Origin: a virus | IMG/VR virus record: IMGVR_UViG_3300023118_000013 | Coordinates: 1 to 45,011 of that record | DNA: 45,011 bases | Reading direction: 5' to 3' (one strand) | Shown: positions 25,734 through 43,638 of the stretch, piece after piece | Layout of the letters: each line of letters starts with the position of its first letter | Position numbering within the stretch: the stretch's first letter is position 1 | The notes under the pieces: generated by a model | What the model was told of the DNA's origin: nothing | What the model saw: the letters and a program-made list of their open reading frames with translations, nothing else | Database searches by the model: none | Position numbers and translations under genes: made by a program

Positions 25734-25762
25734 AGCGTAACGCATACTGACGAAGCTGTCAA
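25734..25762 (-). promoter_or_regulatory. Early promoter with operator dyad, second small-gene group
   Basis: On the minus strand, TTGACAGCTTCGTCAG (25762-25747) carries the -35 box TTGACA. A weak -10, TACGCT, follows after 17 bp (25739-25734). It matches the shared early element at 15 of 16 bases. It stands 26 bp upstream of the first ATG of the group. Confidence 0.65.
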
Positions 25763-25774
25763 TGCCGGCGCCTT

Positions 25775-25834
25775 TCAAAAAGTACGCGACGAGGGATCGG
25801 CAGAAAAGCCCCACTCTACCTTTCGAGCGGTCAC
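25775..25834 (-). pseudogene. Remnant of the polymerase catalytic-half start (19 codons)
   Basis: GTG 25834 overlaps the stop of the preceding gene (GTGA) and opens a frame reading MTARKVEWG, the same as the catalytic half, then FSADPSSRTF and a stop. The first 26 bases match 25009-25034 with only two synonymous differences. It looks like the original start of the polymerase half, left behind when the next group of genes was inserted or exchanged. Confidence 0.75.
25808..25833 (-). repeat. 26-bp repeat, remnant copy
   Basis: Second copy of 25009-25034 in the same orientation, 799 bp away. Identity ends abruptly after the GGC codon. It brackets, with the other copy, four tiny genes and their promoter. 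Confidence 0.9.
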
Positions 25835-26058
25835 TCAACTAACTCCATATCGGTGGCGAAAGGAAGCTGCACAGAACCCATGTAACAATATTTGCCGAAC
25901 GTGTTCATAACGTCCCACAGTGGCCACTCGGACCAGCCGTCCACTTCCTTCGGCATAGCCCGGTATCGTTCCGGGAGTTCGTTTAGCTGCTTCTGAAACT
26001 CGGCACGGCCGAAGTCAGTCAAGCGAATGCGGACCTTACGATTGAGGTTGAGGATCAT
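25831..26058 (-). CDS. Hypothetical phage protein, 75 aa
   Basis: From ATG 26058 (ATGA overlap) the product begins MILNLNRKVRIRLTDFGRAE, a start seen in several small phage proteins, then LPERYRAMPKEVDGWSEWPL and a tail ending FATDMELVE. Longer frames starting upstream would run through the previous gene and have no ribosome site. The compact basic then acidic make-up suggests a soluble protein. Function unknown. Confidence 0.65.
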   Translation of the reverse strand: MILNLNRKVRIRLTDFGRAEFQKQLNELPERYRAMPKEVDGWSEWPLWDVMNTFGKYCYMGSVQLPFATDMELVE

Positions 26059-26234
26059 TCCAGCGTCTCCAAGTATTGCTCCGCCTCGGCCCGTGTCGTA
26101 AAGGCACGGTACGGCGGAAAGTCCGTCCAGGGATGCTTGCGTGACCGACGCATCTGGAGCACGTAGCGCCACCCGTCACGCGTGGGCGCGATGATCACTT
26201 TGTACTCGGTGCGGGTTGTGAGGGCGGTGGTCAC
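26055..26234 (-). CDS. Hypothetical protein, 59 aa
   Basis: GTG 26234 overlaps the preceding TGA, and the TGA overlaps the next ATG. The product begins MTTALTTRTEYKVIIAPTRD, continues GWRYVLQMRRSRKHPWTDFP and ends with an acidic helix (RAEAEQYLETLE). The pattern, beta strands then a helix, resembles small DUF-type phage proteins. No catalytic residues are obvious. Confidence 0.6.
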   Translation of the reverse strand: MTTALTTRTEYKVIIAPTRDGWRYVLQMRRSRKHPWTDFPPYRAFTTRAEAEQYLETLE

Positions 26235-26434
26235 GGGCCGATCGCTCGGTAAGTGTTTTCAGTTGCGCCGTTGTGTTCAAGCGCTGCGGCCAGGCGTTCC
26301 ACAGCGGCTACGACTTTGGCGTCGCCCAACCAATAGAACGAAGCGACTTGCATCTGAAAAAGAAGGTCTTTGGCCGCCACGTCGACTTCACGACGTTTGG
26401 CCGCTTCAAGCAGACTTTTGACAGCGCTGTGCAT
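26231..26434 (-). CDS. Hypothetical helical protein, 67 aa
   Basis: ATG 26434 overlaps the preceding TAA (TAATG). The product is almost entirely helical (SLLEAAKRREVDVAAKDLLF, then ERLAAALEHNGATENTYRAI). No membrane segment. Encoded in a coupled leftward group. Function unknown. Confidence 0.6.
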   Translation of the reverse strand: MHSAVKSLLEAAKRREVDVAAKDLLFQMQVASFYWLGDAKVVAAVERLAAALEHNGATENTYRAIGP

Positions 26435-26664
26435 TACGCGTAACTCCTCTGGAATTTGGGGCCGCGACGATACGTTTTAGCAGAACCGTCATACACGAGG
26501 TTGTCTGGAGCTGCACTCATGTAAGTTTTCAAATCGTCGCTAGCCTGAGGCATGCTGACGCCGTAATAGTCCATGACGGCGGAGCGGTTCACGTGTCCAT
26601 ACTGGTGGACGAGAAAATCAATGAAGCGCAGGCGCTGCTCAACGGCGTACGACCGGCGCGCCAT
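26434..26664 (-). CDS. Winged-helix DNA-binding protein, WYL-type N-terminal domain only
   Basis: The 76-residue product (MARRSYAVEQRLRFIDFLVH, then YGHVNRSAVMDYYGVSMPQA, then APDNLVYDGSAKTYRR) matches the winged helix that precedes WYL domains in bacterial regulators, with the GxxNRS..DYFGVS recognition-helix pattern and the closing Y-D-x-S-A-K-x-Y wing. The WYL ligand domain is absent. The ATG overlaps the upstream TAA. It follows the promoter at 26859-26887 closely, so it may control early transcription. Confidence 0.8.
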   Translation of the reverse strand: MARRSYAVEQRLRFIDFLVHQYGHVNRSAVMDYYGVSMPQASDDLKTYMSAAPDNLVYDGSAKTYRRGPKFQRSYA

Positions 26665-26834
26665 TACGGCGACACCGGCTTCGTGGAAACGCTCTGGCCG
26701 TCCTCGAATGCGTTCCGGCACTGCTCTCCCAAGACGCGACGCTCGGTCTGGTCGTCGTGGTCCATCACGTAATCGGCCACAAGGGCGGGAACAACGCCAG
26801 GACGGTTCTTAACGATAACGTGGATTTTCAGCAT
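26664..26834 (-). CDS. Hypothetical protein, 56 aa
   Basis: Frame from ATG 26834, with GGAGA eight bases upstream, to TAA at 26664, which overlaps the next ATG. The product is MLKIHVIVKNRPGVVPALVA followed by DYVMDHDDQTERRVLGEQCR and a short Ser/Pro tail. It is the first gene after the operator-promoter. No family recognised. Confidence 0.6.
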   Translation of the reverse strand: MLKIHVIVKNRPGVVPALVADYVMDHDDQTERRVLGEQCRNAFEDGQSVSTKPVSP

Positions 26835-26858
26835 CAGTATTCTCCGGTAGGTGGAATA

Positions 26859-26887
26859 ACTTTACCCATCTGTGACGAAGCTGTCAA
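26859..26887 (-). promoter_or_regulatory. Early promoter with operator dyad, first small-gene group
   Basis: On the minus strand, TTGACAGCTTCGTCAC (26887-26872) supplies the -35 box. The -10 TAAAGT (26864-26859) follows after exactly 17 bp. The element matches the shared sequence at 15 of 16 bases. It overlaps the stop codon of the 54-residue membrane gene upstream. Confidence 0.75.
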
Positions 26888-27048
26888 GACCATTTAGAGC
26901 TAATTTCCAAAAGAAATTCTTCAATCTTCTTCAGGGCCTTTTTCTCTCGATACAGAAAGTAAAATTTTAATGAAACCTGCAAAACTGCCAGAAAGACCAG
27001 CTCGACGAGATACACGCGCAGATACCAATCCGCCTCAGATGTAGCCAT
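26884..27048 (-). CDS. Single-span membrane protein, 54 aa
   Basis: ATG 27048 lies three bases after the stop of the polymerase N-terminal half. The product begins MATSEADWYLRVYLVELVFL, has a hydrophobic segment near residues 10-34, then a charged tail (REKKALKKIEEFLLEIS). Its TGA is inside the -35 box of the next promoter. Function unknown. Confidence 0.6.
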   Translation of the reverse strand: MATSEADWYLRVYLVELVFLAVLQVSLKFYFLYREKKALKKIEEFLLEISSKWS

Positions 27049-27051
27049 CTC

Positions 27052-28314
27052 TTACTCCACGCTAGAGCCGCACCACGGGCACGCCGTGAGCGACATTGAG
27101 AAATGGTGCGAGCAGTCGTCGCACCGGTAGACGTACACGCCAGAACTATTGGGCAGATTGGTGGGCTGCGGACCGGAGCCGGTCGGGCGTCCCGTTCGCG
27201 CGCCATGGAAGGTATAGAGGTCGTGCAGCCGTCCATCGGCGGCCAACTGGTTGCGAATAGCGAACACCTTCTTGACCGATGCACTGCCCACGAAAGAGCG
27301 TATTTGCAACGCGCGGCGCGGAGCAGCGGGCAACTCGCCGGAAAGCGCCGCCTGCACGTTCTCGTCGTCCATGCTGGCCATCTCAACCCCGTGGTGCTCA
27401 CGTAGCCACGCCGCGAGCCGTTGCGTCTGGCTCGCCTTCGTGACCACGCCGCCCGTGAGTGCCGCCAGCTCCGCGTTGTACTGCCGGTGCGCCTGCTCGA
27501 TGATGGCGATGCACGCGTGCAGGCCGTCCTGGTCGATGGCGATGCCGCGCTGGTTAATGGCCTGGTCGATGAACCAGTATTCCTGCTCCTCTGGCGAGAG
27601 GTCCGGCACCTTGGCGCTCACCTCCGATTCGGCCACGATGTCCCGGGCGTTGTAGGCGTACAGGCGCGGGCCGTCCACCGGGTCGTCTTCGGGCCGGATG
27701 CGCTGGCGCGGGTCGGCCTTGGTCGGGCTGCGCGGCTGCGAGAAGCGCTGCAGCAGGCGCGTGCCGTCCTTATCCTTGCCGTGCTCCACGGCCAGCACCT
27801 CGCCCACCTTGTCCAGCGCGGGCGGCAAGGCCCAGGCGCGGCCCTTGGCCTGCGCGCACCGTACCTGACGTAGCGGTAGCGGCGGGGCGCCATAGCGCTT
27901 GACCATCTGGCGCCACACCCACATCTCGAACCCCGCGTTGAACGCCTCGATCAGCCCGCCGGCGGCAATGTGGTCGTAGAGGTCTTGCGGCACGGGCATG
28001 GCCGGCGTCCAGAGCTTCGGGCCGCTGCCGTCCTTCAGGTTGTATGCCAGGCTCAGAATCTCAAAGGTGGAGTGCTGCGTGTAGGCCGCGGCGCCCACCA
28101 CCGCAATGCCGCTGCGGGCATTCTCGGCCGCCACTTTCCACCGGCCGCCATTGGCACGTCCCGTGGCACTCGTGCTGGGAAGCACCCACACGTACCCGGC
28201 CTCCGAGTAGGTCTCGAAGTCCATGTCGGGCAGCACGGTGCTATAGGAGCGCCCGGCGCGCAGGCGGTAGCCGGCGGGAAGATCGTGCAGGGTGGGCGGT
28301 GGTGGAAGGGTCAC
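27052..28314 (-). CDS. DNA polymerase, family A, exonuclease/thumb half
   Basis: The 420-residue product holds the 3'-5' exonuclease start DMDFETYSEAG (Asp32, Glu34), the region HIAAGGLIEAFNAGFEMWVW, YAYNARDIVAES (further acidic residues), then the thumb/linker RSFVGSASVKKV and TFHGARTGRPTGSGPQPTNL. It ends in a zinc-ribbon-like pair, CDDC (398-401) and CPWC (412-415), five residues before the stop. Motifs A, B and C are missing and lie in the gene at 23983-25035. GTG 28314 overlaps the previous TGA. A longer frame to ATG 28338 is possible but uncoupled. Confidence 0.85.
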   Translation of the reverse strand: MTLPPPPTLHDLPAGYRLRAGRSYSTVLPDMDFETYSEAGYVWVLPSTSATGRANGGRWKVAAENARSGIAVVGAAAYTQHSTFEILSLAYNLKDGSGPKLWTPAMPVPQDLYDHIAAGGLIEAFNAGFEMWVWRQMVKRYGAPPLPLRQVRCAQAKGRAWALPPALDKVGEVLAVEHGKDKDGTRLLQRFSQPRSPTKADPRQRIRPEDDPVDGPRLYAYNARDIVAESEVSAKVPDLSPEEQEYWFIDQAINQRGIAIDQDGLHACIAIIEQAHRQYNAELAALTGGVVTKASQTQRLAAWLREHHGVEMASMDDENVQAALSGELPAAPRRALQIRSFVGSASVKKVFAIRNQLAADGRLHDLYTFHGARTGRPTGSGPQPTNLPNSSGVYVYRCDDCSHHFSMSLTACPWCGSSVE

Positions 28315-28787
28315 GCAAACGTCTCCCACCACTGCCACAGGTTAACGATCGGAACGTCCAGTGCGGTAGCGAACTGCACGCAATTGCAGGTACCACCGAG
28401 CGAGCCGTCCCATAGCGCAATGACGCCACTGGCGCGCCGGACCATGTATTTGTTGCGTTCCATCATCGCTTTTACCGAATAGCGCGGAGACACTTCGATT
28501 ACCTTGGTTGCGCGTGACAACAGCGTACGGTACCTCTCTTGCGAGTCACGCGGCCACTTGGACTCTTGACCCGGAAACGGCACGGCGGCCTCCCATGGAA
28601 TGCCGAGGTCAACGCAAGCCTGTGCGCACGCTTGGTCCCAGCCTTGTGCCATGCCTGAGACGAACAGCGCGGGCCGGTGCTGGCGCAAGTACCACGCTGC
28701 GAAGTCTTCCACCTTGGCCTGCACGCGCGGGTCGTAGCCTCCCAGTTTGTCCGGCCTATGGCCGGTAGCGCACCAGGTGATCGTCAC
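28311..28787 (-). CDS. DprA/YspA-like Rossmann (SLOG/DUF1273-type) protein
   Basis: The 158-residue product has WCATGHRPDKLGGYDP (the GHRP..L motif), LFVSGMAQGWDQACAQACVD (the SGMA.G.D nucleotide-binding loop), MMERNKYMVRRASGVIALWD and GSLGGTCNCVQFA. These are the signatures of the YspA/DUF1273 branch of SLOG proteins, which bind nucleotide-derived ligands. GTG 28787 and both ends overlap neighbours. Role in phages unknown. Position beside the polymerase suggests nucleic-acid or signalling function. Confidence 0.75.
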   Translation of the reverse strand: MTITWCATGHRPDKLGGYDPRVQAKVEDFAAWYLRQHRPALFVSGMAQGWDQACAQACVDLGIPWEAAVPFPGQESKWPRDSQERYRTLLSRATKVIEVSPRYSVKAMMERNKYMVRRASGVIALWDGSLGGTCNCVQFATALDVPIVNLWQWWETFA

Positions 28788-29281
28788 TTTGGAGGCACTC
28801 CCAAATATTCACGCCACGGCACCTTGACGCCGTTGACCAGAAAGCCCCACGTACCGCGGTACTTCCACGTGATGAACAGCGTCCACGCGCCGCCCGGAGC
28901 TACCCAGTAAATCCGATGAAACTCACTGAAGCGCAAAGATGCGGTATCTCCACTCCAGTACTCGCGCAAAGCGCCACGTTTACGCTCCTCGTCGTAACCG
29001 CCGCGAAGAATGATTGTCCGCGCGTTCCACGGGTGGTCGTGCAGGTGCCGGTCCTGGTCCTCGACGCAGATGTGATGGACGCGCACTGACGGCAGCCACG
29101 CCCAGCGCTTGCGCTCATCACCCGCGCCTGGGTATGGGTTGAAGAGCCACCAGCGGCCCATGTAAAGCGTCTGGCCGTCCGGGCTCATGATGGGCGAGTA
29201 GGGCGTGCGCTGCGCTCGTGCGATAAGCCAGTCGGCTACGCTGGGGATGGCGCAGATGCGGGCAAGTAGGGGCCACAACAT
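28784..29281 (-). CDS. Cupin-like conserved phage protein
   Basis: The 165-residue product has VHHICVEDQDRHLHDHPWNA and RTIILRGGYDEERKRG, then FHRIYWVAPGGAWTLFITWK. The H-x-H-x-H cluster followed by an LRGGY strand is the cupin metal-binding arrangement. Short relatives are frequent in phage replication regions, with unknown substrate. ATG 29281 overlaps the preceding stop. A GTG one codon earlier is equally possible. Confidence 0.65.
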   Translation of the reverse strand: MLWPLLARICAIPSVADWLIARAQRTPYSPIMSPDGQTLYMGRWWLFNPYPGAGDERKRWAWLPSVRVHHICVEDQDRHLHDHPWNARTIILRGGYDEERKRGALREYWSGDTASLRFSEFHRIYWVAPGGAWTLFITWKYRGTWGFLVNGVKVPWREYLGVPPK

Positions 29282-29655
29282 CACTCTTCCTCGTCGGAAC
29301 GAGAACGGCGCTTGCGCTTCGGGCGTGCCTCGGCCTCCGCCCTCGAAGCAGCCAGCGCCGCAGCTTCCAACTCGGCCACGTTGTAATCGTATTCGCGAGG
29401 CAGCGCGAAGTTACCTTTGCGGCCAGTCAATTCCTCAACCAAGACAGCGTTGAAAAAGTCCTTGGCGTTCAAGAGCTCCGCGCCGTCCATTTGCTCGCGA
29501 GCGCCGGTCAAGGCCTTACCGATCGCCGCGTAAATATCTTGCTCGCTAACGGCGCGGCCTGGCGTCATGCCAACCGTCACGGTTGCAATTCGATTGCCGA
29601 TTTTCAGCGTGACCTTCGCGTCGAACTGGATCGGGCCTATGAATTTGTTTGTCAC
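29281..29655 (-). CDS. Hypothetical protein with basic-acidic tail, 124 aa
   Basis: The product begins MTNKFIGPIQFDAKVTLKIG (beta-rich), then has a helical stretch (SEQDIYAAIGKALTGAREQM) and VEELTGRKGNFALP. It ends with a strongly charged tail (EAEARPKRKRRSRSDEEE). AGGAG precedes ATG 29655. Lies directly after the SSB-like gene. Possibly nucleic-acid associated because of the basic patch. No family recognised. Confidence 0.6.
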   Translation of the reverse strand: MTNKFIGPIQFDAKVTLKIGNRIATVTVGMTPGRAVSEQDIYAAIGKALTGAREQMDGAELLNAKDFFNAVLVEELTGRKGNFALPREYDYNVAELEAAALAASRAEAEARPKRKRRSRSDEEE

Positions 29656-29703
29656 GTCTTGCTCCTGTAAGTAGCGCCCCGCTCGACCAGGGCGCCGGGT
29701 GCG

Positions 29704-30537
29704 TTACGCGGCGGTCACGTACTGATGCTGGAGCGCAATCTCCAGCGACCAGCCCGGGGAGGCGATCAGCGACTCGACGCTCGTCGCGCCCTTGCTGATG
29801 GCCAGCTCGGTCAGACGGTACGTGGGGCCCGGCACGTCCAGCGGGGCCGTGTGCGGCACGGTGGGGGTCGGAGCAGGCGGAGCGGACATGGGCGGTGTGG
29901 GGGGTGTCAGCCCACCCTGCGGCGTGAGCGTGCCACCGGGCGGCAGGGCCGCGCCGCCGAAGCCCGCCGCGGACGCATCGGCCGTAAAGGTAATTTCCGG
30001 ACCGTGCCCTGCGTGCGCCACAAAGTCGTGGTTGACGTAGATGCCCGGGCTGTCACCGGTATTGCCCTTCACGCTGCCGAGCACCTGGATGTAATGGCCC
30101 GGCTTGATCGAGTCGGCCGGGACCGGCGCGCTGCCGTCCGAGTTGACCGTCTTGACCGCGAAGCGAGAGGAGAACCAGACGATCCAGCAGCCGGCGTAGT
30201 TGGGATTGTCGGACGGCTTCTTCCCTTTCTTGTTCGGCACCTGGCTATCGCCGTCCGTCACCTTCCACGAGAAGGTCGGCGCGAGGCTCTGGCCCTGCGG
30301 AAAGTCACGCGTGGCCACGGCGACCATCTGCGCGCCCCACGGTTCGGCCTTCCAATCGACGCCCGGACGCTTGGCGATGGCCATGCCGAACGAGTAGTCC
30401 ATTACGGCGCTGCCATCCGCGTTCTTGACGGGCTGACCGTTGGAGGTAACCGGCTGCCCGGTGGTGAGCGAGCCGCCCACGAATCGGCCGGACAGCTTTG
30501 GGCCGGGGAACAGTACGGAGGTTGCTTCTTTGCTCAT
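29704..30537 (-). CDS. Single-stranded DNA-binding-like protein (putative)
   Basis: The 277-residue product has a beta-rich N-terminal domain with YAGCWIVWFSSRFAVKTVNS, DSIKPGHYIQVLGSVKGNTG and GIYVNHDFVAHAGHGPEITF, the pattern of phage OB-fold SSB-like proteins encoded next to RecB-type nucleases. A Pro/Gly-rich linker (residues 195-235) and a short helical C-terminus follow, unlike bacterial SSB with its acidic tip. Encoded immediately after the DUF2800 nuclease (ATGA overlap). The SSB role is inferred from context and pattern. Confidence 0.6.
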   Translation of the reverse strand: MSKEATSVLFPGPKLSGRFVGGSLTTGQPVTSNGQPVKNADGSAVMDYSFGMAIAKRPGVDWKAEPWGAQMVAVATRDFPQGQSLAPTFSWKVTDGDSQVPNKKGKKPSDNPNYAGCWIVWFSSRFAVKTVNSDGSAPVPADSIKPGHYIQVLGSVKGNTGDSPGIYVNHDFVAHAGHGPEITFTADASAAGFGGAALPPGGTLTPQGGLTPPTPPMSAPPAPTPTVPHTAPLDVPGPTYRLTELAISKGATSVESLIASPGWSLEIALQHQYVTAA

Positions 30538-31676
30538 TGCTTGAATGCCTTTGCGACTTGGGTGTAATTGATCGGTGCCAACTTGAGCGCACCGGGCGGA
30601 CGTTGAGAGTATTGCGATATGACAGCTTCGTCAATACCGAGTTTGATGGCCTGCGTCGGCGTGATGCATTCCGGCTTGGACACATCCTTGCCGTACATGA
30701 GTTGCATGGCCGCGATGACCTCGGCGGCAGGCTTGCTCCACTTGAGGCGCGACTGGCCGCGCTCCATGTGCCAGCCCGGTACGGACAGCCCCGTGCCGAT
30801 TTGTGCCGCTGCGACAGCCTCCAGGCCGGCGATCCGTGCAGAGACCATCTGGTCGATGCGCTTCAACATGGTCAACTCCGCACCGACAACGGCCGGCGGC
30901 GGATCAAACGGCGTATTGCCGCCCACGTAGTCCGCCAATTGCGAGACGTAACGTTGGTTGGCCTCGCATCCGACGATGGCGCTGCAATTCTTGCACTGGA
31001 CAGGCCCTGCGATGGTCGGCGCGTTGTGGTCCATGGCCCGAGCCTCCCGGTCGGACCAGTAGTTGAAGTGGGCGCGCAGGTCGGTCAGCTTGCCGCACCA
31101 GCGGCGGATCGGACCGAGGCGGCCATACTCGCGCGGCTGCACGATGGTGAACTCGAACGTCCATTCCTGGTCGTCCTCGGGCCAGCCGCCCAGATCCGTC
31201 TCGATCACGCCTGCCAGGTACTCGATGCCTTGCGGGTTCTCGTGTGCCTCGACGTAACCATGGCCGTACTTGTAGTCCCAGACACGGATGCGCTTGCGGT
31301 AGCGGTCAACGTAACGGGCGTCGGGCGTTCCGTAGCACTCAGCGTGAATGAGGTTGGGCGCGGCTACCGGTCGCTCAACGACGAGAGCCTCCCACACCTC
31401 GACCGCCATGCCGATGCGGTCCATCACGTCTTTTGCAACCATCAAGGCGCCGTCTATCATGTCCTGATCGGAAGGTATGCCGTTGGGCAGGATCGTGCCG
31501 ACCGGAGAGTAGCTGGCGTATGTGAGATACTCGGCCATCACGTGGTGCGCCGCAGTGCCCTCCGCAGCTTCCGGCGTCTCCACCTGCGGCACGCGTGCCT
31601 CGAGCGCACGGCTACCCGGGCAGCGACCGCGCCGGAACGCGCCGCTCGGTGCGAGTGGGGCGTGCGTGCCGGTCAT
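30534..31676 (-). CDS. PD-(D/E)XK nuclease, DUF2800 (RecB/Cas4-like)
   Basis: The 380-residue product begins MTGTHAPLAPSGAFRRGRCP and GTAAHHVMAEYL (the His/Cys-bearing N-terminus of DUF2800). The nuclease core is ECYGTPDARYVDRYRKRIRV with Asp, then WDYKYGHGYVEAHENPQ with the D-x-K and downstream Gln. Later Cys (CKNCSAIVGC) could hold an iron-sulfur cluster as in Cas4/AddB. Such enzymes act in phage recombination with the neighbouring SSB-like protein. ATGA overlaps on both sides. Confidence 0.8.
   Translation of the reverse strand: MTGTHAPLAPSGAFRRGRCPGSRALEARVPQVETPEAAEGTAAHHVMAEYLTYASYSPVGTILPNGIPSDQDMIDGALMVAKDVMDRIGMAVEVWEALVVERPVAAPNLIHAECYGTPDARYVDRYRKRIRVWDYKYGHGYVEAHENPQGIEYLAGVIETDLGGWPEDDQEWTFEFTIVQPREYGRLGPIRRWCGKLTDLRAHFNYWSDREARAMDHNAPTIAGPVQCKNCSAIVGCEANQRYVSQLADYVGGNTPFDPPPAVVGAELTMLKRIDQMVSARIAGLEAVAAAQIGTGLSVPGWHMERGQSRLKWSKPAAEVIAAMQLMYGKDVSKPECITPTQAIKLGIDEAVISQYSQRPPGALKLAPINYTQVAKAFKQ
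30619..30634. promoter_or_regulatory. Operator-like element inside the DUF2800 gene
   Basis: ATGACAGCTTCGTCAA matches the shared early element at 15 of 16 bases. It lies in coding sequence (codons for IDEAV on the minus strand). On the minus strand TTGACG could serve as -35 with TACTCT after 17 bp, about 80 bp upstream of the SSB-like start. Use as a promoter or a repressor site is uncertain. Confidence 0.4.
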
Positions 31677-32557
31677 GACCGGCGGATCTCATCCAGCGCG
31701 TTGAACGCCGCCGTGGCCAACTCGGGCTTGGCGATGCACGCGGCCGCAAACTCCGGCAGGCTCATGCCCAGGACCGAGACGTAAAGCTCCGGCTTGTTGA
31801 GGGTCTCCTGGTTCGCCATGATCAGGTTCACCACGTCGGAGTAGCTGCGCTGGACAAGCGAGACAGGCACCGGGGGCGGAAGCTGACCATGTGCAGCCGC
31901 TTCATTGAGTGCTTCGTTGTATGCGGCGCGGCCAGCAGTTGGGATCGGCGGGACCGGTACGGGCGGCGCGGCCAGCGGCAAGTCCGCTTCGGTCAGCTGG
32001 GGCGCCTGCACCAGCCCGCGCAACTCGGCCTCCACGGCCTGCTTGTTCTCGTCCGGCACATTCTTGCGGTAGCGCCATGTGCCGTCCGCATTGATCGCGC
32101 GGCTGGACGAGTGTATCCGTTCGTCCCAGGGCAGGCCATTCTTGTCGAGGCCCGTACCCTTCGAGAAATTGCCGTTTGAAAAGTCCGAACGCGCCATTTC
32201 GTCGGTTTCCGAAGGCTGGGGATCTGGCGACGCGGGCGGAAGGGACTCGACGGCCCGAATCTCTTCGCTCGTCAAGGCGCCTGCGAACTGCTCGGCCTCC
32301 GTGTACGGCGGCGGCGGATTGAGCGGAAGGTCGTCTTCGGTAAGCTGGGTAGCCTCGGGGTCTGAAATGCCACCAACGAAACGTGGCATGATCGGCTCGC
32401 GCTTACCAATCGTGACAGGCCCGCCGAACTCTTCGTAGGTAAATTCAGGTTCGTCGATGTTGTTTACCAGTCCGCCCAGCGCCAGCACCGCATTGGCCAC
32501 GCGGCGCGTCTGTTCGGGCGACTCGTCGCCGGTCAGGTGGAAGTTGAAGTGCATCAT
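31673..32557 (-). CDS. Conserved phage protein with IHSSS-motif domain, 294-295 aa
   Basis: From ATG 32557 (or the adjacent ATG 32554), with AAGG about eight bases upstream, the product begins MMHFNFHLTGDESPEQTRRV. It is Pro/Glu-rich in the middle and has GLPWDERIHSSSRAINADGT followed by WRYRKNVPDENKQAVEAELR, a short domain recurrent in phage replication regions whose function is unknown. A longer frame from 32629 would cross the promoter-operator and is rejected. It is the first gene of the leftward replication block. Confidence 0.7.
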   Translation of the reverse strand: MMHFNFHLTGDESPEQTRRVANAVLALGGLVNNIDEPEFTYEEFGGPVTIGKREPIMPRFVGGISDPEATQLTEDDLPLNPPPPYTEAEQFAGALTSEEIRAVESLPPASPDPQPSETDEMARSDFSNGNFSKGTGLDKNGLPWDERIHSSSRAINADGTWRYRKNVPDENKQAVEAELRGLVQAPQLTEADLPLAAPPVPVPPIPTAGRAAYNEALNEAAAHGQLPPPVPVSLVQRSYSDVVNLIMANQETLNKPELYVSVLGMSLPEFAAACIAKPELATAAFNALDEIRRS

Positions 32558-32573: not shown

Positions 32574-32616
32574 TTGACGGGAGCCGACAGTACGGTATGA
32601 TTGACCAAGCTGTCAA
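32574..32616. promoter_or_regulatory. Divergent promoters around a shared operator
   Basis: Rightward: TTGACG (32574-32579), 16 bp, TATGAT (32596-32601), with start near 32608. The dyad TTGACCAAGCTGTCAA (32601-32616), a perfect-armed variant of the shared element, covers that start. Leftward: its other strand supplies TTGACA as -35, with TACTGT after 18 bp as a weak -10. One bound protein could control both the replication block and the helicase unit. Confidence 0.7.
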
Positions 32617-34370: not shown

Positions 34371-34398
34371 TTGACAGCTTCGTCAAAGAGCGTATATT
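34371..34398 (+). promoter_or_regulatory. Early promoter with perfect operator dyad
   Basis: TTGACAGCTTCGTCAA (34371-34386) contains the -35 TTGACA. TATATT (34393-34398) follows after 16 bp. This is the best -10 among the early elements. It begins three bases after the helicase stop and drives the long run of small genes to the right. Confidence 0.85.
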
Positions 34399-34431: not shown

Positions 34432-34695
34432 ATGACCAACATGCCCACCTACCCGCGCATCACCCAGCCCCTGGCGCACGCGCCCAAGCCGGACGTAACG
34501 ACCCATGAGGACATCGACTGGCGCACAGTCAGCGTGGCCGAGGCGATCGACGCGGAGCGCCAGCGCGTGATGGACCAGAGAGTCAAGTTGGCCAGCCTCG
34601 GTCGTAAATGCGGGAAGTCGGGCATGTTCGCGGTGCGCAAGCCCAGCAAGTGGAACACGCTGCTTCAGGTTCTCGGCATTCGGAGGATGTCATGA
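34432..34695 (+). CDS. Hypothetical protein, 87 aa
   Basis: The product begins MTNMPTYPRITQPLAHAPKP and has an acidic helix (VSVAEAIDAERQRVMDQRVK) and a basic C-terminus (SKWNTLLQVLGIRRMS). GGAG precedes ATG 34432. First gene of the small-gene run after the 34371 promoter. No family recognised. Confidence 0.6.
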   Translation: MTNMPTYPRITQPLAHAPKPDVTTHEDIDWRTVSVAEAIDAERQRVMDQRVKLASLGRKCGKSGMFAVRKPSKWNTLLQVLGIRRMS

Positions 34696-37346: not shown

Positions 37347-38065
37347 TGCAACTTTACTTGGGCGATTGCCTGGATGTCCTGCCGACGTTGCCGGACAAGT
37401 CCGTCGACATGATCATGTGTGACCTGCCGTACGGGACGACACAGAACAAATGGGACAGCGTGATCGACTTGCCCACGTTGTGGGAGCAGTACCGCCGTAT
37501 CTGTAAAGGCGCGATCGTCCTGACGGCTCAGCCTCCGTTTGATAAGCTGCTCGGCGCGTCCAATTTGGGCATGCTTAAGTACGAGTGGATTTGGCGTAAA
37601 AGCAAACCGACTGGGCACCTCAACGCTAAGAAGCAGCCGATGAAAGAGCATGAAAACGTGCTGGTTTTTTACGAGACGCAACCGACGTATAACCCGCAAG
37701 GTTTGGTTCGGAAAGAAGTTCCGACGATTCGCAAAGGCGGTGCGGGGAACGGATCGAATTATGGTGATAGCGCTAAGGACGCGTTGCAAGAATTCGAAAA
37801 ATACCCTCGATCAGTTCTTGAGTTTGCGAGTGAAGCCCGGACGGTACACCCCACCCAAAAGCCCGTTGCGCTCATGGAGTACCTGATCCGGACGTACACG
37901 AATTCCGGTGATGTGGTCCTGGACAATTGCGCGGGTAGTGGCAGCACGGGCGTTGCGGCTCTCCAGTCCGGCCGTCAATTCATCGGTATCGAGCGAGAGT
38001 TGGAGTACTGGCTGATAGCGCATGCCCGCCTCTCCGCGATTGACACCTCCGTCAGCAACGCCTAG
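37346..38065 (+). CDS. DNA N6-adenine/N4-cytosine methyltransferase
   Basis: The 239-residue product has motif IV DLPYGTTQNKWD (26-37), then HPTQKPV (168-174) and motif I NCAGSGSTG (194-202), the order IV-X-I of beta-class enzymes. Asp26-Leu-Pro-Tyr replaces DPPY. No restriction endonuclease is adjacent, so this orphan methylase probably protects phage DNA from host restriction. Recognition sequence unknown. The end of the gene carries the next promoter. Confidence 0.88.
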   Translation: MQLYLGDCLDVLPTLPDKSVDMIMCDLPYGTTQNKWDSVIDLPTLWEQYRRICKGAIVLTAQPPFDKLLGASNLGMLKYEWIWRKSKPTGHLNAKKQPMKEHENVLVFYETQPTYNPQGLVRKEVPTIRKGGAGNGSNYGDSAKDALQEFEKYPRSVLEFASEARTVHPTQKPVALMEYLIRTYTNSGDVVLDNCAGSGSTGVAALQSGRQFIGIERELEYWLIAHARLSAIDTSVSNA

Positions 38066-38098: not shown

Positions 38099-38368
38099 AT
38101 GCCGCAGTTTGACCGAACCACCTTGCTCGATGCCGCCCTGACCGTGGCGCACGGCAAGCACTACACGCAGATGACCCGCGAGGACGTGGCCGCCCAAGCC
38201 GAGTGCGCGCCGGCCCTCATCAGTTACTACCTGGGCCGCATGTGCGACGTCCGTGACGCCGTGGTCGACTTGGCCCGCAAGCGCGGATGCCTGCGCCTCC
38301 TCCACGCGGCGCCTGTTGGGGACTCGCGCAACTCGGGCCGTAATGGGCCGGTACGGAGTGCATCGTGA
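38099..38368 (+). CDS. TetR-like DNA-binding protein (N-terminal domain only)
   Basis: The 89-residue product has TTLLDAALTVAHGKHYTQMT and REDVAAQAECAPALISYYLG, the three-helix TetR DNA-binding domain (DAA...A...G...(I/M)TREDVAA.A..A..LI.YYFG). The ligand domain is missing. It sits just after a promoter that carries a variant of the shared operator, so it is a candidate for the protein that binds it. GTG-coupled to the next gene. Confidence 0.75.
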   Translation: MPQFDRTTLLDAALTVAHGKHYTQMTREDVAAQAECAPALISYYLGRMCDVRDAVVDLARKRGCLRLLHAAPVGDSRNSGRNGPVRSAS

Positions 38369-38616
38369 TACGCCGCGTCTACTGGGACGGTAAGTGGTGG
38401 ACGCAGGTTAAGCCTATTCCAGGCCAGGCCGCGTGGTGGAAATTGTGGCTACGGTACTCGGCGTACCCCTTCCCTAAGTTGTTTCACCGGGTTCGGATGG
38501 CCAACGTGCAGTCGCTGCGTTTCTGGCGCTTCGAGCTGATGACGTGGGCGTCGTGGAAGCCGACCGTTGCGCGTCAGTTACACCCGGAATGCTTCGTCGA
38601 AGTCATCGACGCGTAG
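38365..38616 (+). CDS. Basic Trp-rich protein, 83 aa
   Basis: GTG 38365 overlaps the preceding TGA. The product has nine Trp and many Lys/Arg (RRVYWDGKWWTQVKPIPGQA, RFWRFELMTWASWKP). It could contact membrane or nucleic acid. No family recognised. Confidence 0.6.
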   Translation: MIRRVYWDGKWWTQVKPIPGQAAWWKLWLRYSAYPFPKLFHRVRMANVQSLRFWRFELMTWASWKPTVARQLHPECFVEVIDA

Positions 38617-38639
38617 TTTTTAGCTAGGCAGGGCACCCC

Positions 38640-41009
38640 ATGCAGTCTCTTCCTCCCGCGCTGCAACCGCTCGCAGCGTACAGGCAGTTCATCGCCTACC
38701 AGTTGGTGCCCGACACGTCACGTCCGGGCAAGACGTTCAAGTACCCGATCAATATCGCCACCGGCCGTAAGCACGACCCGACCGACGCGTCCGCTTGGCA
38801 TAGTCACGATGAAGTGAGCGCGTGGGTCGAGTCGCGGGCGGACCACGGCTGCGCGTTTGTGTTCACAGAGGAAGACCCGTTCTTCTTTCTGGACATTGAC
38901 GGCCAATGGATTGACGGCATGTGGTCGCCGCTGGCGCTCCAGCTGGCCACCCGCCTCAATGGCGTAGCCGTGGAGGTGAGCCAGTCCCATACCGGCCTGC
39001 ACCTGATCGGCCAGTACCGGGGCGCGCGGCCCGTGCATGGCTGCAAACCGCCCAAGGCCCGGCAGCTTCCGCTGGAGCTCTACACGGCGGACCGCTTTGT
39101 CGCGCTGACCGGTCTGTCCGCCGCCGGTGACGCCAGCGTGGATGCCACTGAGGCGCTGCTGTCCATCATTGGCGACTACTTCCCGCCGAGCCTGGGCGCC
39201 GAGCTGGAGGATGGTTGGTGGTCCGAGGAGCCCGTGCCGGAATGGACCGGGTACGCCGACGATGAGGAAATGCTCCGCGTGGCCATGCTGTCCACCAGTG
39301 CCGCCGCGGCCTTTGGTGGCAAGGCGACTTTCGCGGATCTGTGGCACGCCGACGAGGCCAAGCTGGCCGCCACGTACCCGGGCGATAATGGCCGGTTGTG
39401 GGACGGCAACAGCGCCGATATGGCCCTGGCGCAGCACCTGGCCTTCCACACGGGCAAGAATGCGCAGCGCATGCTCGAGCTGATGCCCCGCTCCGCGCTG
39501 GCGCGTGACAAGTGGGAGCGGCCCGACTACCTGCCCCGGACCATCCGCAAGGCCTGTGCGCAACAGGTGGACGTGTTCAAGCGGCGCGAGGTGCAGCCAT
39601 TGGACCGTGAGCTGCCCATCGTGGCCACGCCGGCTGCCGCGCGCCTCTTGGCGCGTCGCATCCAGGGCGAGACGTTCCTGGGCGCCGACCAGCAGACGAC
39701 CCTCTTTGAAGGATGCTGCTACGTGGAGGACCAGCACAAGGTACTCACGCCGGACGGCGCGTTGCTGGCGCCCGGGCAGTTCCAGGTGCGCTTCGGCGGG
39801 TTCACGTTCGCCATGGACCCGGAAGGTAAGCGCATGGTCCGCAACGCCTGGGAGTGCTTCACGGAGAGCCAGCTGCTCCAGTTCCCCAAGGCGGACACCG
39901 CGGCCTTCCGGCCCGATCGGCCACTGGGGGAGATTGTGGAGGAGGGCGGCTATCGACGGGTCAATTCTTACGTGGAGGTTAGCGTGCCGCGCCAGGCGGG
40001 CGATGCGAGCCGATTCTGGCGGCACCTTGAGCTCATCCTGCCCGACCCGCGCGACCGGCAAATCCTGGTCAGCTACATGGCCGCCTGCGTGCAGTACAAG
40101 GGCGTCAAGTTCCAGTGGGCGCCGCTGGTCATCGGGCCGCCCGGCAACGGCAAGACCCTGCTCACCCGGTGCGTAGCCAACGCTATCGGAAAGCGGTACG
40201 TGCATTGGCCCAAGGCGTCCAAGCTGGCCAAGCAGTTCAACGGCTGGATGGTGGGCAAGCTCTTCTACGGCGTGGAGGACATCTACACGGCGGACGCCAA
40301 GGTCGACGTGATCGAGGAGCTTAAGCCCATGATCACCGGTGGCGACGGTCTGGAAATCGAGTTCAAGGGGGTGGATCAGGCCAGCGCGGATATCTGCGGC
40401 AACTTCATGTTCAATTCCAACCACGATAACGGTATCCGCAAGACCAAGGACGACCGCCGGTTCGCCATGTTCTTCACGGCCCAGGAGTTGCGGGGATGGG
40501 ACGTGGAGCGTAGCGAGATGCGCGGATCCTACTTCCCCGACCTGTACGACTGGCTGCGCGCGGAGGGCTACGCCATCGTGGCCGAGATGCTGCACACTTA
40601 CGCCATCCCGGACGAATTTAATCCGGCCAAGGGCTGCCACCGCGCGCCGCGCACCTCCACCACGGACCGTGCCATCCACGCGGGGATGGGCCGCGCCGAG
40701 CAGGAGATACAGGACCGCATCGAGCAGGACGCGCCGGGCTTCCGCGGTGGCTGGGTCAGCAGTAGCGCCATGCGCCAACTCTTTGCCGACGAGCGGATCA
40801 CCATGCCTCGGTCACGCTACAAGGATGTGATGCAGGAACTGGGCTATGAGTTGCACCCGCACCTCACGGATGGCCGAGTGAACCAGCTGGTCAGCCCGGA
40901 CAACAACAAGCCGCGCCTGTACGTGCGGGCCGGTAGCGGTCTGGAGCACATCACGGACCCCAAGCTGGTGGCCGAGGCGTACCAGGCGGCGCAATTGGGG
41001 ATGGGGTGA
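38640..41009 (+). CDS. Primase-helicase (primase-polymerase N-terminus, D5/DUF5906-like helicase)
   Basis: The 789-residue product begins with an archaeo-eukaryotic primase-like domain (FFFLDIDGQWIDGMWSPLAL, acidic pair near 84-86, and VEVSQSHTGLHLIGQY). After a linker comes an SF3-like helicase with Walker A GPPGNGKT near 499-506, a GVEDIYTADAKVDVIEEL region as Walker B, and MFNSNHDNGIRKTKDDRRFA sensor/arginine region of DUF5906. It would prime and unwind DNA for the split polymerase. SD-like AGGCAGG lies upstream. Confidence 0.88.
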   Translation: MQSLPPALQPLAAYRQFIAYQLVPDTSRPGKTFKYPINIATGRKHDPTDASAWHSHDEVSAWVESRADHGCAFVFTEEDPFFFLDIDGQWIDGMWSPLALQLATRLNGVAVEVSQSHTGLHLIGQYRGARPVHGCKPPKARQLPLELYTADRFVALTGLSAAGDASVDATEALLSIIGDYFPPSLGAELEDGWWSEEPVPEWTGYADDEEMLRVAMLSTSAAAAFGGKATFADLWHADEAKLAATYPGDNGRLWDGNSADMALAQHLAFHTGKNAQRMLELMPRSALARDKWERPDYLPRTIRKACAQQVDVFKRREVQPLDRELPIVATPAAARLLARRIQGETFLGADQQTTLFEGCCYVEDQHKVLTPDGALLAPGQFQVRFGGFTFAMDPEGKRMVRNAWECFTESQLLQFPKADTAAFRPDRPLGEIVEEGGYRRVNSYVEVSVPRQAGDASRFWRHLELILPDPRDRQILVSYMAACVQYKGVKFQWAPLVIGPPGNGKTLLTRCVANAIGKRYVHWPKASKLAKQFNGWMVGKLFYGVEDIYTADAKVDVIEELKPMITGGDGLEIEFKGVDQASADICGNFMFNSNHDNGIRKTKDDRRFAMFFTAQELRGWDVERSEMRGSYFPDLYDWLRAEGYAIVAEMLHTYAIPDEFNPAKGCHRAPRTSTTDRAIHAGMGRAEQEIQDRIEQDAPGFRGGWVSSSAMRQLFADERITMPRSRYKDVMQELGYELHPHLTDGRVNQLVSPDNNKPRLYVRAGSGLEHITDPKLVAEAYQAAQLGMG

Positions 41010-41012
41010 GTG

Positions 41013-41041
41013 TTGACAGCTTCGTCAAGGACGGGTAGAGT
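41013..41041 (+). promoter_or_regulatory. Early promoter with perfect operator dyad
   Basis: TTGACAGCTTCGTCAA (41013-41028) with -10 TAGAGT (41036-41041) after 17 bp. It begins four bases after the primase stop and heads a second run of small genes. Confidence 0.8.
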
Positions 41042-41066
41042 GGTCAGCACTAACAGAGAGAAGACA

Positions 41067-41231
41067 ATGAACTCTTTCATTCACATGAGCCAGTTTCCCG
41101 ATTCAGTTAAACGCGAGCCGATGCTGGTCAACCCGTACACCGGTGAGACTCGCGATCCTCGGGACGTTGAGTCTGACCCTTTCGGCATTCTGGTCATTGA
41201 CCCCTCCAAACCTCTTTTGGCGGCCAAGTGA
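41067..41231 (+). CDS. Hypothetical protein, 54 aa
   Basis: The product is MNSFIHMSQFPDSVKREPML followed by NPYTGETRDPRDVESDPFGI and a short tail. AGAGAAG precedes ATG 41067. First gene after the 41013 promoter. Function unknown. Confidence 0.6.
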   Translation: MNSFIHMSQFPDSVKREPMLVNPYTGETRDPRDVESDPFGILVIDPSKPLLAAK

Positions 41232-41443
41232 TGTACGCAATCGAACTACAAAGTTACAACACGGGGTGCAAGGCCCGCATCGGTGCGCCGATCGCCACGT
41301 ACGAACGCGCGGCCAATCTGGCCCGGTCGGTCAGTAATGATCCGTTTTGGTGGCGTGAGCAGGCGCCGTCCGAGGCAGCCATGGGTGGTCGGCCGTTAGT
41401 GGTGGGCGTCGCTGGCGGTTGGCTCTCGGTGGTGCGGCTATGA
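41231..41443 (+). CDS. Hypothetical protein, 70 aa
   Basis: ATG 41231 overlaps the preceding stop (TGATG). A GTG one codon earlier is possible. The product is MYAIELQSYNTGCKARIGAP then a short helix (YERAANLARSVSNDPFWWRE) and a Gly/Val-rich end. Alpha/beta, soluble. Function unknown. Confidence 0.6.
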   Translation: MYAIELQSYNTGCKARIGAPIATYERAANLARSVSNDPFWWREQAPSEAAMGGRPLVVGVAGGWLSVVRL

Positions 41444-41652
41444 CCCGCAGCGACGCAGCGCGCGACCTACTCGTCCACATTGACCAGCTGCGGGGCGCCC
41501 TGGCTGCACGCGAGGCCGACATGACCCAACTGGCCATTGCGACCGGGCATACCAGCCTGGTGCGTACGGTGCGCGGGATGGCCGATGCGGTCGAGAAGGC
41601 GCGGCACAGAGTGGAACGGGTGACACGCGACGTTAAGGAGCAGAAGAAATGA
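41440..41652 (+). CDS. Helical hypothetical protein, 70 aa
   Basis: ATGA overlap upstream and downstream. The product is almost wholly coiled coil (SDAARDLLVHIDQLRGALAA ... VEKARHRVERVTRDVKEQKK). No other motif. Function unknown. Confidence 0.6.
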   Translation: MTRSDAARDLLVHIDQLRGALAAREADMTQLAIATGHTSLVRTVRGMADAVEKARHRVERVTRDVKEQKK

Positions 41653-42113
41653 TGACGCTTGCACAAGTTGCGTGGAAGCTCGGCGAGTTGGCACGAGAAG
41701 GTGCAGTGCGCTATGACGCGCACGACATGGCTGTGATGTGCTCACAGATGGCCGATGCAGTCACAGCCCACCTATCCCAACCCCAGCCCGTTGCGCAGGG
41801 GGAGGCTTTGGCTTGGCAGTATCGATGCATCACGGAGGAAGGCCCGTCGAAGGTGTGGCACATGATCGACAAGGAAACCTACGATAGGTGGAGGGAAACC
41901 TCATGGTCGCGAATGGAGTTCCGCGAGCTATTCGCCACACCCACCATCCCCACCGGATACAGGGTCGTTCCGGTTGAGCCGACACCTGAAATGTTAGAGC
42001 GGGCCAGAGAAGTACATGCGCCACTTGATGGTGAAGACGATGACTTCGACTACGAGTTCACGCGTACGTGGAAAGCCATGATCGCCGCCTCACCTTCCGC
42101 TGGGGGTGTGTGA
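41649..42113 (+). CDS. Ead/Ea22-like hypothetical protein, 154 aa
   Basis: The product has LSQPQPVAQGEALAWQYRCI then MIDKETYDRWRETSWSRMEF, RELFATPTIPTGYRVVPVEP and TPEMLERAREVHAPL. The ELFATP...P.GY.VVPVEPT linker is common to Ead/Ea22-like phage early proteins. Function unknown. ATGA overlap. Confidence 0.65.
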   Translation: MMTLAQVAWKLGELAREGAVRYDAHDMAVMCSQMADAVTAHLSQPQPVAQGEALAWQYRCITEEGPSKVWHMIDKETYDRWRETSWSRMEFRELFATPTIPTGYRVVPVEPTPEMLERAREVHAPLDGEDDDFDYEFTRTWKAMIAASPSAGGV

Positions 42114-42229
42114 TGCCTACGACAGCACCTTGGGGTCTTGCGCACCGGGTGGATATGCGAAAGCTATGGCGCTATCCCGGCACTCCAATTCCAGACCGAC
42201 TCAAGTTCCGATACAAGGAAAGGCCATGA
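42113..42229 (+). CDS. Hypothetical basic peptide, 38 aa
   Basis: ATG 42113 overlaps the previous TGA (TGATG) and the TGA overlaps the next ATG. The product is MPTTAPWGLAHRVDMRKLWR then YPGTPIPDRLKFRYKERP, basic and Pro-rich. Coupling supports translation. Function unknown. Confidence 0.5.
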   Translation: MPTTAPWGLAHRVDMRKLWRYPGTPIPDRLKFRYKERP

Positions 42230-42582
42230 CCACCAGCGTCACAGATGAAATGGTTTCCGCCGCAGATGATGCCTACGACAAGCATTGGGCGAATTGTGGC
42301 GACCACTATGCGGCTATGCGATGCGCGATAGAGGCAGCCCTCCGCAGCCAGGGCAAGGTGGAAGGCTGGCGTCCTATCGATACGGCACCGAAGGATGGTT
42401 CTACCGTTCTTGCCTATTCCCCTGTAGACGGTCCATTCACTTCGCGATGGGAGGGCCGAATTTGGCAGGGCCAGCCATGGCGTCCGTATAAGGAGGCACT
42501 AAAGGCAAACCCGACGCACTGGATGCCGCTACCTTCCGCACCAACGAACGACCTAACCGCCATCATCGGCGAGGGGGATTGA
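42226..42582 (+). CDS. DUF551-containing protein, 118 aa
   Basis: The C-terminal half has VEGWRPIDTAPKDGSTVLAY ... THWMPLPSAP, the DUF551 signature common in phage early genes. The N-terminal half is helical (MVSAADDAYDKHWANCGDHY). AAGGAAAGG precedes ATG 42226. Function unknown. Confidence 0.7.
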   Translation: MTTSVTDEMVSAADDAYDKHWANCGDHYAAMRCAIEAALRSQGKVEGWRPIDTAPKDGSTVLAYSPVDGPFTSRWEGRIWQGQPWRPYKEALKANPTHWMPLPSAPTNDLTAIIGEGD

Positions 42583-42583
42583 G

Positions 42584-42769
42584 GTGGCTAAGGGATGGGA
42601 ACGTGTAGATCATCGTCCTGCGTACACGAGCCATGGCGTGAAGGTCATTCACATGGTCACTAGTGGCGGGTACGTCATGGTTAAAGAGGCGCGGCAACGG
42701 CCGTTCGTTCTGACGTTGAAAGAATGGGCGAATCTTACCAAAGAACCGCCGAAAGGAGGTGGGCAGTGA
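42584..42769 (+). CDS. Hypothetical protein, 61 aa
   Basis: GTG 42584 follows the previous stop by one base. The product is MAKGWERVDHRPAYTSHGVK then HMVTSGGYVMVKEARQRPFV and a KEPPKGGGQ tail, mostly beta. The end of the gene doubles as a strong AAAGGAGGTG ribosome site for the next gene. Confidence 0.6.
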   Translation: MAKGWERVDHRPAYTSHGVKVIHMVTSGGYVMVKEARQRPFVLTLKEWANLTKEPPKGGGQ

Positions 42770-43122
42770 ACATGGTTGAGGGATTGAAGGACCTTCGTTA
42801 CGAGATTGAGCAGCTTTTAGAGCTGGCTGCCAAGGGCGAGAAACACTGGGAATGGGAAGGCGTGTATGAGACTGATGCATCTTCGTTCATACGCGCTCAC
42901 GGTCACTCTATTGTTTCGCTGATGGCGGATGCTGAGCGCATCGAATGGCTACAAGGCCATGCCCACACCATTTATACGGCACACGACCTTGAGACGTTTG
43001 GTATTACCCACTTCGTGGTCGTCCATGAAACGTCAGGCACGAGGAAGGGAAATGTTGCCCCGACGGTTCGGGAAGCCATCGACCTCGCCCGAACCAAGGC
43101 CGTGGCGGGAGGTGCGCCATGA
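42766..43122 (+). CDS. Hypothetical protein, 118 aa
   Basis: GTG 42766 overlaps the preceding TGA and has AGGAGG six bases upstream. An ATG two codons later is less well spaced. The product is acidic helical (EGLKDLRYEIEQLLELAAKG) and ends with FVVVHETSGTRKG and REAIDLARTKAVAGG. No family recognised. Confidence 0.6.
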   Translation: MNMVEGLKDLRYEIEQLLELAAKGEKHWEWEGVYETDASSFIRAHGHSIVSLMADAERIEWLQGHAHTIYTAHDLETFGITHFVVVHETSGTRKGNVAPTVREAIDLARTKAVAGGAP

Positions 43123-43229
43123 AGTGGCCCATGTGGCTCTGCCGTCTCGGTGTGCATCACTGGCGCTGGCTGCCCGGCAACCAGATCCGCTGCACCGTGT
43201 GCGGCAAAGTGGAGCGGGATTTGCCATGA
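43119..43229 (+). CDS. Zinc-knuckle peptide, 36 aa
   Basis: ATGA overlap on both sides. The product is MKWPMWLCRLGVHHWRWLPG then NQIRCTVCGKVERDLP. Cys8, His13/14 and the CTVC pair could hold a zinc. The same CxxCGK ending occurs in the next gene. Confidence 0.55.
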   Translation: MKWPMWLCRLGVHHWRWLPGNQIRCTVCGKVERDLP

Positions 43230-43426
43230 GCAACGGCAGCAAGACCCGCAACGCCGACGCCCGTCAGACCGCGAGCCGTGCGGCACAGATGGCGCGTGAG
43301 GCCCGTTGCCCGCACATTACCTGGCGGTACGCACCGGCCAGTATCTTGCCGGGCTGGCGTCCGCGGCGCACCTGTGCAGGGTGTGGAAAGGTGCAGTGGT
43401 TGACAGCTTCAGCAATAAGCGAGTAG
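43226..43426 (+). CDS. Zinc-knuckle protein, 66 aa
   Basis: The product is basic (SNGSKTRNADARQTASRAAQ), then CPHITWRYAPASILPGWRPR and CAGCGKVQWLTASAISE. Cys/His and CAGC could bind zinc, and HITWRYAP...PGWRPRR..CAGCGK resembles the phage C-x2-H..CxxC zinc type. The last codons contain the promoter at 43400. Confidence 0.6.
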   Translation: MSNGSKTRNADARQTASRAAQMAREARCPHITWRYAPASILPGWRPRRTCAGCGKVQWLTASAISE

Positions 43427-43429
43427 ATT
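43400..43429 (+). promoter_or_regulatory. Early promoter with degenerate operator, upstream of the candidate small RNA
   Basis: TTGACA (43400-43405), 18 bp, TAGATT (43424-43429). The 16-mer TTGACAGCTTCAGCAA keeps 14 of 16 bases but breaks the right arm. It overlaps the end of the zinc-knuckle gene. Transcription would start near 43436 in a stretch with no long gene. Confidence 0.65.
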
Positions 43430-43435
43430 AATTTA

Positions 43436-43602
43436 ACGACCGAGTGGGTGACGCACATGCGTTTTGCAATCGTCCACTTGAACGTGTAGCCCGAAAGGGC
43501 AGAGGATTAGCCGGGCCGTGCCTCTTCCTAAGAAAACTCCGGCAGTCGGTGGGCTGTAACTCTAGACCGATAGTGACCCGCCCACGTGGCGGGTTTCTTT
43601 TG
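43436..43602 (+). ncRNA. Candidate structured small RNA
   Basis: About 165 nt between a promoter and a terminator with no ordinary gene. Predicted helices by eye: CGAGTGG (43441-43447) with CCACTTG (43474-43480), enclosing ACGC/GCGT; GCCC-GAAA-GGGC (43489-43500) with a GNRA loop; AGAGG (43501-43505) with CCTCT (43521-43525); TCGGT (43546-43550) with ACCGA (43566-43570); and the terminator stem. A 10-codon frame MRFAIVHLNV (43457-43489) with a weak ribosome site lies inside. Not a tRNA. Function unknown. Confidence 0.5.
43576..43601 (+). terminator. Rho-independent terminator
   Basis: ACCCGCC (43576-43582) pairs with GGCGGGT (43588-43594) around the loop CACGT, followed by TTCTTTT. It ends the candidate small RNA unit and lies just before the next early promoter. 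Confidence 0.8.
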
Positions 43603-43610
43603 GGTAGGTG

Positions 43611-43638
43611 TTGACAGCTTCGTCAAAGAGAGTAGAGT
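43611..43638 (+). promoter_or_regulatory. Early promoter with perfect operator dyad
   Basis: TTGACAGCTTCGTCAA (43611-43626) with -10 TAGAGT (43633-43638) after 16 bp. It drives the last five small genes to 44877. Confidence 0.82.

Follow-up and report, generated by a model that had tools for sequence, protein, structure and literature searches.

A promoter-locked palindrome repeated along a phage genome, the probable operator of a phage-encoded mini-TetR protein

Among phages in which one DNA-binding protein serves many sites, the Cluster A mycobacteriophages use an asymmetric 13-mer that is bound by a monomer with a helix-turn-helix (HTH) domain and a stoperator domain (PMC9283540). TetR-like regulators have been noted in the phages phiPLPE, CP-T1 and 138, with co-option of a bacterial gene suggested; that report, which appeared in 2012, notes the gene only, with no operator or regulon that we saw described there, and leaves open how CP-T1, described as temperate, manages without the genes needed for known mechanisms of lysogeny (PMC3391216). 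The literature that we searched on Jedunavirus and on phage TetR proteins contained no report of the operator discussed here. This element is a palindrome with the arms TTGAC and GTCAA six bases apart (TTGAC-N6-GTCAA), and it recurs in the 45,011-base phage genome represented by the virus record IMGVR_UViG_3300023118_000013, which was analysed over its whole length and is hereafter called the window. Judging from comparative sequence analysis, we regard it as probable that the element is the operator of a repressor encoded by the phage itself, a diminutive TetR-type protein (mini-TetR), and that the system would most likely serve to time events during lytic growth.

A sequence-only reading of the window had listed nine copies of a 16-mer, three of them exact, with arm centres 11 bp apart, and the list proved correct in every position. 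Searched at up to three mismatches on both strands of the whole window, TTGACAGCTTCGTCAA returns precisely these nine matches (exact copies at 34371, 41013 and 43611), whereas dinucleotide-preserving shuffles of the window give a mean of 0.29 and a maximum of 2, far from the equal frequency that would be expected of a chance motif. With the arms alone (at most one mismatch), 12 matches are found against 0.88 expected; the four that lie outside the earlier list are weak. The structural half of the window has no match to the 16-mer at up to three mismatches, so that the claimed restriction to the early half stands for this genome, although not for its relatives (see below). At all nine sites, where the earlier reading had said most, the left arm is compatible with a -35 box that has a -10-like hexamer 15–18 bp away, and at eight of the nine a start codon lies no more than 100 nt downstream. 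Inside this phage the core AGCTTC varies no more than the arms do, and the whole 16-mer is nearly invariant; the window alone therefore cannot tell a symmetric site from an asymmetric one, but its relatives can.

No match emerged when the window was compared with phage records by megablast, and relatives were thus sought through the protein product of the primase gene (38640..41009, plus strand). Those found at about 43–54% identity include Shewanella phage SppYZU01, Acinetobacter phage Scuro, Stenotrophomonas phage B2, Jedunavirus phages of Klebsiella, Pectobacterium phage PEAT2 and many IMG/VR contigs. In 89 loci of related phages, selected for little mutual sequence sharing, the exact TTGAC-N6-GTCAA occurs 113 times, against 0–5 times for each of the other spacers from 0 to 12 and at most seven times (median one) for controls with permuted arms. 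When promoters were defined as TTGAC followed by a -10 at 16–18 bp, 228 of the 674 in the relatives kept at least four of the five bases of GTCAA at a gap of 6, versus one of 33 in four control phages; the same 674 promoters yielded 5–27 such cases at gaps 3–5 and 7–9. Conservation is hence not limited to the -35 hexamer, the right arm being kept at exactly 6 bp across the group. The group consensus, approximately TRTTGACG-N4-CGTCAAYA, is symmetric and has its -10 mostly 17 bp past the -35. A -10 matching in at least four of six positions at 16–18 bp accompanies 83 of 112 exact sites, compared with 17% of random positions (in both sets the orientation with the better -10 was taken), and a ribosome-binding site with an open frame starting 30–110 nt downstream follows 58% of the operator promoters versus 16–20% in controls.

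A matrix trained on the relatives alone, the window's own sites being left out, ranks the eight strong sites of the window first to eighth and places the copy at 43400 at the level of the best random matches (13.4 versus a mean best score of 13.1 in random sequence). Together, the results on spacer, gap and matrix indicate that the arms stay the same from phage to phage and the core does not: the site reads TTGACA-N4-TGTCAA in Scuro, mostly TTGACG-N4-CGTCAA in Jedunavirus and TTGACAGCTTCGTCAA in the window. The exact 16-mer TTGACAGCTTCGTCAA was found in 64 stretches of IMG/VR (a raw count), most of them with a single match and with flanks unlike the window promoters, and 3300023223_000867 is the only contig there with several copies; the full 16-mer thus seems peculiar to the window phage, with conservation residing in the arms. 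In the Klebsiella phage SBP, no other gapped palindrome of this type is as frequent genome-wide. Structural genes, too, are preceded by sites in Jedunavirus phages and CP-T1, unlike in the window, which implies that the set of targets varies between phages.

The sequence-only reading had seen no recognisable repressor in the window, which is probably wrong, since a gene for an 89-residue protein of TetR_N type lies directly behind the site at 38040 (38099..38368, plus strand). This protein, the candidate binding partner for all the sites, matches PHROG 8723 (listed in PHROGs as of unknown function) with an E-value of 1.1e-11; for the proteins of the relatives the values range from 1e-28 to 1e-52. 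Its counterparts occupy the same place before the primase gene and are annotated as TetR-family regulators, and a profile built from eleven such proteins (including that of the window) finds one member ahead of the primase in nearly all of 103 related loci. TetR_N is matched individually by 33 of 49 family members. The profile of the family as a whole hits TetR regulators of known structure in the PDB (E 2.7e-10), mainly over the HTH. AlphaFold models the HTH region of the window protein (residues 11–60) with a predicted local distance difference test score above 90; fold searches returned TetR regulators only, the best E-values, 0.016 and 0.006, being poor because the models are small. Most members of PHROG 8723 comprise about 90–105 residues, that is, an HTH followed by a short tail of the approximate form IAQGLAxGDxxAxKAPxELKxxAL, and the C-terminal ligand and dimerisation domain of classical TetR proteins is absent from the members of 89–105 residues.

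A longer form of about 165–170 residues occurs in SppYZU01, Scuro, L106, L126, L144 and others. In L144, L106, L148, L149, L126, L119, L154, L161, L164, L075 and L077 it carries an extra N-terminal HTH-like domain with a conserved GLINLSR...GIPDGSF motif, and AlphaFold predicts two helical HTH-like domains in a single chain for the regulator of L144; the longer form is possibly a fused pseudo-dimer.

Protein and site are linked by position as well as by distribution. Of 84 loci, 43 have an operator where the regulator gene begins, against 5.4 expected from site density. Phages with a distantly related primase and no clear PHROG 8723 member, namely Silvanus (with a weak match), PaMx10, KKP 3829 and VCLv21, have no exact sites. 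We consider this link strong but circumstantial, and several observations weigh against the proposed pairing. In Stenotrophomonas B2, AeroV_348, R9Y2 and L127 the gene is present and such sites are absent; RHph_Y5A, in which no gene was detectable, shows 12 sites with one mismatch and no exact one; and common descent contributes to the co-occurrence of gene and sites. On the side of the protein, the window member taken singly matches TetR_N with an E-value of only 0.035, short of the Pfam cut-off, its tail diverges from the family, and the classical TetR dimer domain is lacking. Moreover, that the protein represses rather than activates is judged from the position of the sites alone.

A search for gapped palindromes in site-poor relatives returned TAGCG-N6-CGCTA in PY6 and GGGCTA-N4-TAGCCC in AeroV_348, both of which may equally be terminators. 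In phiPLPE (L181), the variant TTGCCG-N4-CGTCAA at 6573, 11922 and 29768 precedes the genes for the small terminase subunit, a head protein and a tail fiber/lysozyme protein, and is perhaps the same operator with an altered left arm. Pseudomonas phage Psp6 (L079) has 12 one-mismatch TTGAC-N6-GTCAA sites versus 0.64 in controls; they are spread over the genome and have no good -10 boxes, suggesting a different use or a coding bias. A difference between site-rich and site-poor phages at the start of the recognition helix (Ala versus Ser) was nominal and confounded by descent, and was not used.

As to the mechanism, TTGAC-N6-GTCAA spans about -36 to -21 of sigma-70-type promoters in the window phage and its related group, taking in the -35 hexamer and the ten spacer bases next to it. 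Arm centres separated by 11 bp, or one helical turn, suit two TetR-type HTH heads that sit on the same side of the DNA. The arms would be occupied by two copies of the protein or by a larger assembly, and protein bound at the palindrome would exclude RNA polymerase. The idea of a shared operator at which a dimer blocks RNA polymerase is upheld as regards an operator-like palindrome on many early promoters, while dimer binding and repression by the mini-TetR stay predictions. Because the promoter of the putative repressor bears the same site, the repressor would limit itself. The host polymerase would open the early promoters jointly, the repressor would accumulate, and the promoters would then be damped jointly, a layout corresponding to a single-input regulon with negative feedback.

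Four sites read on the minus strand. Two of them, TTGACAGCTTCGTCAG (25747..25762) and TTGACAGCTTCGTCAC (26872..26887), each overlie the -35 of a promoter that points leftward; the first has the -10 TACGCT at 17 bp and a small gene starting near 25709, the second TAAAGT at 17 bp and an open reading frame (ORF) starting at 26834. The site at 30619..30634 (TTGACGAAGCTGTCAT when read leftward) lies within the end of the exonuclease gene and is assigned to the minus strand by the best promoter fit (TTGACG, start codon at 30537); it has a -10-like hexamer at 15–17 bp and stands 97 nt ahead of the gene for a Gp2.5-like single-stranded DNA-binding protein. TTGACAGCTTGGTCAA (32601..32616, minus strand) occupies a divergent region between the gene at 31673-32557 (minus strand) and the helicase gene (plus strand). 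On the plus strand, TTGACAGCTTCGTCAA at 34371..34386 is followed by TATATT at 16 bp and an ORF starting at 34432, TTGACACCTCCGTCAG at 38040..38055 by TAGTAT at 17 bp and, directly 3', the mini-TetR gene, TTGACAGCTTCGTCAA at 41013..41028 by TAGAGT at 17 bp and an ORF starting at 41067, and TTGACAGCTTCGTCAA at 43611..43626 by TAGAGT at 16 bp and an ORF starting at 43667. The remaining element, TTGACAGCTTCAGCAA at 43400..43415 (plus strand), has TAGATT at 18 bp, a broken right arm (AGCAA) and no convincing gene downstream; it is a decayed copy at most and the weakest of the nine.

The same parts could play another role, with the mini-TetR and its operators forming an immunity or pseudolysogeny switch that would silence an incoming or resident genome as a whole and need no integrase. 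CP-T1 speaks for such a role: its gp14 is a PHROG 8723 member accompanied by TTGAC-N6-GTCAA sites, of which there are 13 (six exact) versus 1.6 in controls, some of them before structural genes, and this in a phage described as temperate and as lacking the genes of known lysogeny mechanisms. The presence of many operators across an entire genome also resembles immunity systems. However, a search of 84,980 species genomes gave eight matches, all on contigs of metagenome-assembled genomes (MAGs) and none convincingly integrated; the early region of SBP found nothing in complete Escherichia coli genomes; among 369 genomes of one class, the only full-length match was the MAG used as the centre; and in plasmids the matches to the primase were partial and distant. 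Jedunavirus phages and phage 138 are, moreover, among the members reported or regarded as lytic. As for the claimed lack of an integrase, neither an integrase nor a protein of the CI/Cro family was seen among the early genes scanned, the genes of the structural half lying outside that scan. Since no convincing integrated copy was found, timing in lytic growth is favoured, and we hold the immunity role to be doubtful. It is likewise rather unlikely, but worth stating, that PHROG 8723 and TTGAC-N6-GTCAA make up an undescribed class of genome-wide phage switch supporting integrase-free lysogeny or pseudolysogeny and superinfection immunity; if true, this would explain the temperate behaviour of phages like CP-T1.

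It is less probable still that the protein activates transcription at its sites, or that these act as elongation road-blocks as in L5-type phages. The sites are indeed numerous and mostly oriented with transcription, and TetR-family activators exist. The centre of the palindrome nevertheless falls near -28, between a good -35 and a -10 at the normal spacer of 17 bp, which is where a repressor site would be placed and not that of an activator, and the fixed spacing to the -10 points to initiation rather than elongation.

A host regulator of TetR type, such as RutR, might instead read the palindrome, the phage borrowing the control system of its host and using its own TetR_N protein for something else. 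With TTGACCAnnTGGTCAA as its consensus, RutR shares both arms and their spacing, and would be an example of a TetR-type HTH able to recognise them. In Escherichia coli, the RutR binding site is a palindrome of 16 bp, and the protein is a repressor of its own gene (PMC10891134). Nonetheless, the hosts are diverse (Klebsiella, Acinetobacter, Vibrio, Shewanella, Pectobacterium, Pantoea and others), the core differs between phages in the way that a phage-specific partner would lead one to expect, and it is the phage gene that co-occurs with the sites and carries one in front of it, which makes a host reader very improbable. The least credible proposal is that the element is just a strong promoter type, in which the bases past TTGACA are RNA polymerase contacts or relics of recent promoter copying: the 16-mer with its core is nearly constant inside the window, but in the relatives the core is free and GTCAA, which is no promoter element, is fixed at exactly 6 bp.

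Among the early genes are those for a DNA polymerase, the Gp2.5-like protein, an exonuclease, a helicase, an endonuclease, a DNA methylase and the primase. The promoter-locked placement of the palindrome argues against its being the sequence recognised by the neighbouring N6/N4 DNA methylase. The DNA polymerase looks split, 27052-28338 (minus strand) corresponding to positions 675-993 of phrog_17 and 23983-25068 (minus strand) to positions 995-1232, with an insert of about 2 kb and lower GC content between the pieces that holds small genes and two operators; the polymerase of JD001 is likewise annotated in two pieces. A 26-bp direct repeat (92%) has one copy at 25009-25034, close to where the C-terminal polymerase piece starts, and the other at 25808-25833 in the insert; it contains on its minus strand TAGAGT, the -10 hexamer of two operator promoters. 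A cysteine-dioxygenase-like protein is encoded among the replication genes at 28784-29284 (phrog_4786, E 1.4e-33). Both ends of the record (1-14 and 44998-45011) carry the identical 14 bases TTGAGCCGGGCCAG, a possible sign that the genome is circular or complete.

For a large group of phages, the proposed pairing yields a candidate repressor together with a regulon that can be tested. The group includes the Jedunavirus phages of Klebsiella, in which the gene is annotated as "TetR" and no role for it is described in the literature searched. For the temperate behaviour of CP-T1, there is now a concrete candidate, and the question has become testable. As the operator is short and its core phage-specific, immunity groups and operator specificity might be predictable from sequence, and nature's short and tandem forms of the protein lend themselves to asking how a TetR-type head functions without the large dimer domain.

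Compared with the described systems, the mini-TetR shares with the TetR family (TetR, QacR, RutR; PF00440) the TetR_N-type HTH, a palindrome of about 16 bp over promoters and an operator at its own gene, but it differs in its size of about 90–105 residues, its short conserved tail and the many operators per phage genome. With lambda CI and Cro it would have in common that a small HTH protein blocks early promoters including its own, although here single isolated operators lie on many promoters in place of two tripartite ones. The Cluster A mycobacteriophages (L5, TipsytheTRex) are similar in that one phage DNA-binding protein attends, as would the mini-TetR, to many sites across the genome, oriented with transcription, and, as regards the tandem forms, in having two DNA-binding domains in one chain; they differ from the phages studied here, in which the site is a promoter-locked palindrome, the protein belongs to a different family and no integrase was seen in the scanned early genes. 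Given the absence of the classical TetR C-terminal domain and the symmetry of the site, we place the system in neither the TetR nor the Cluster A class.

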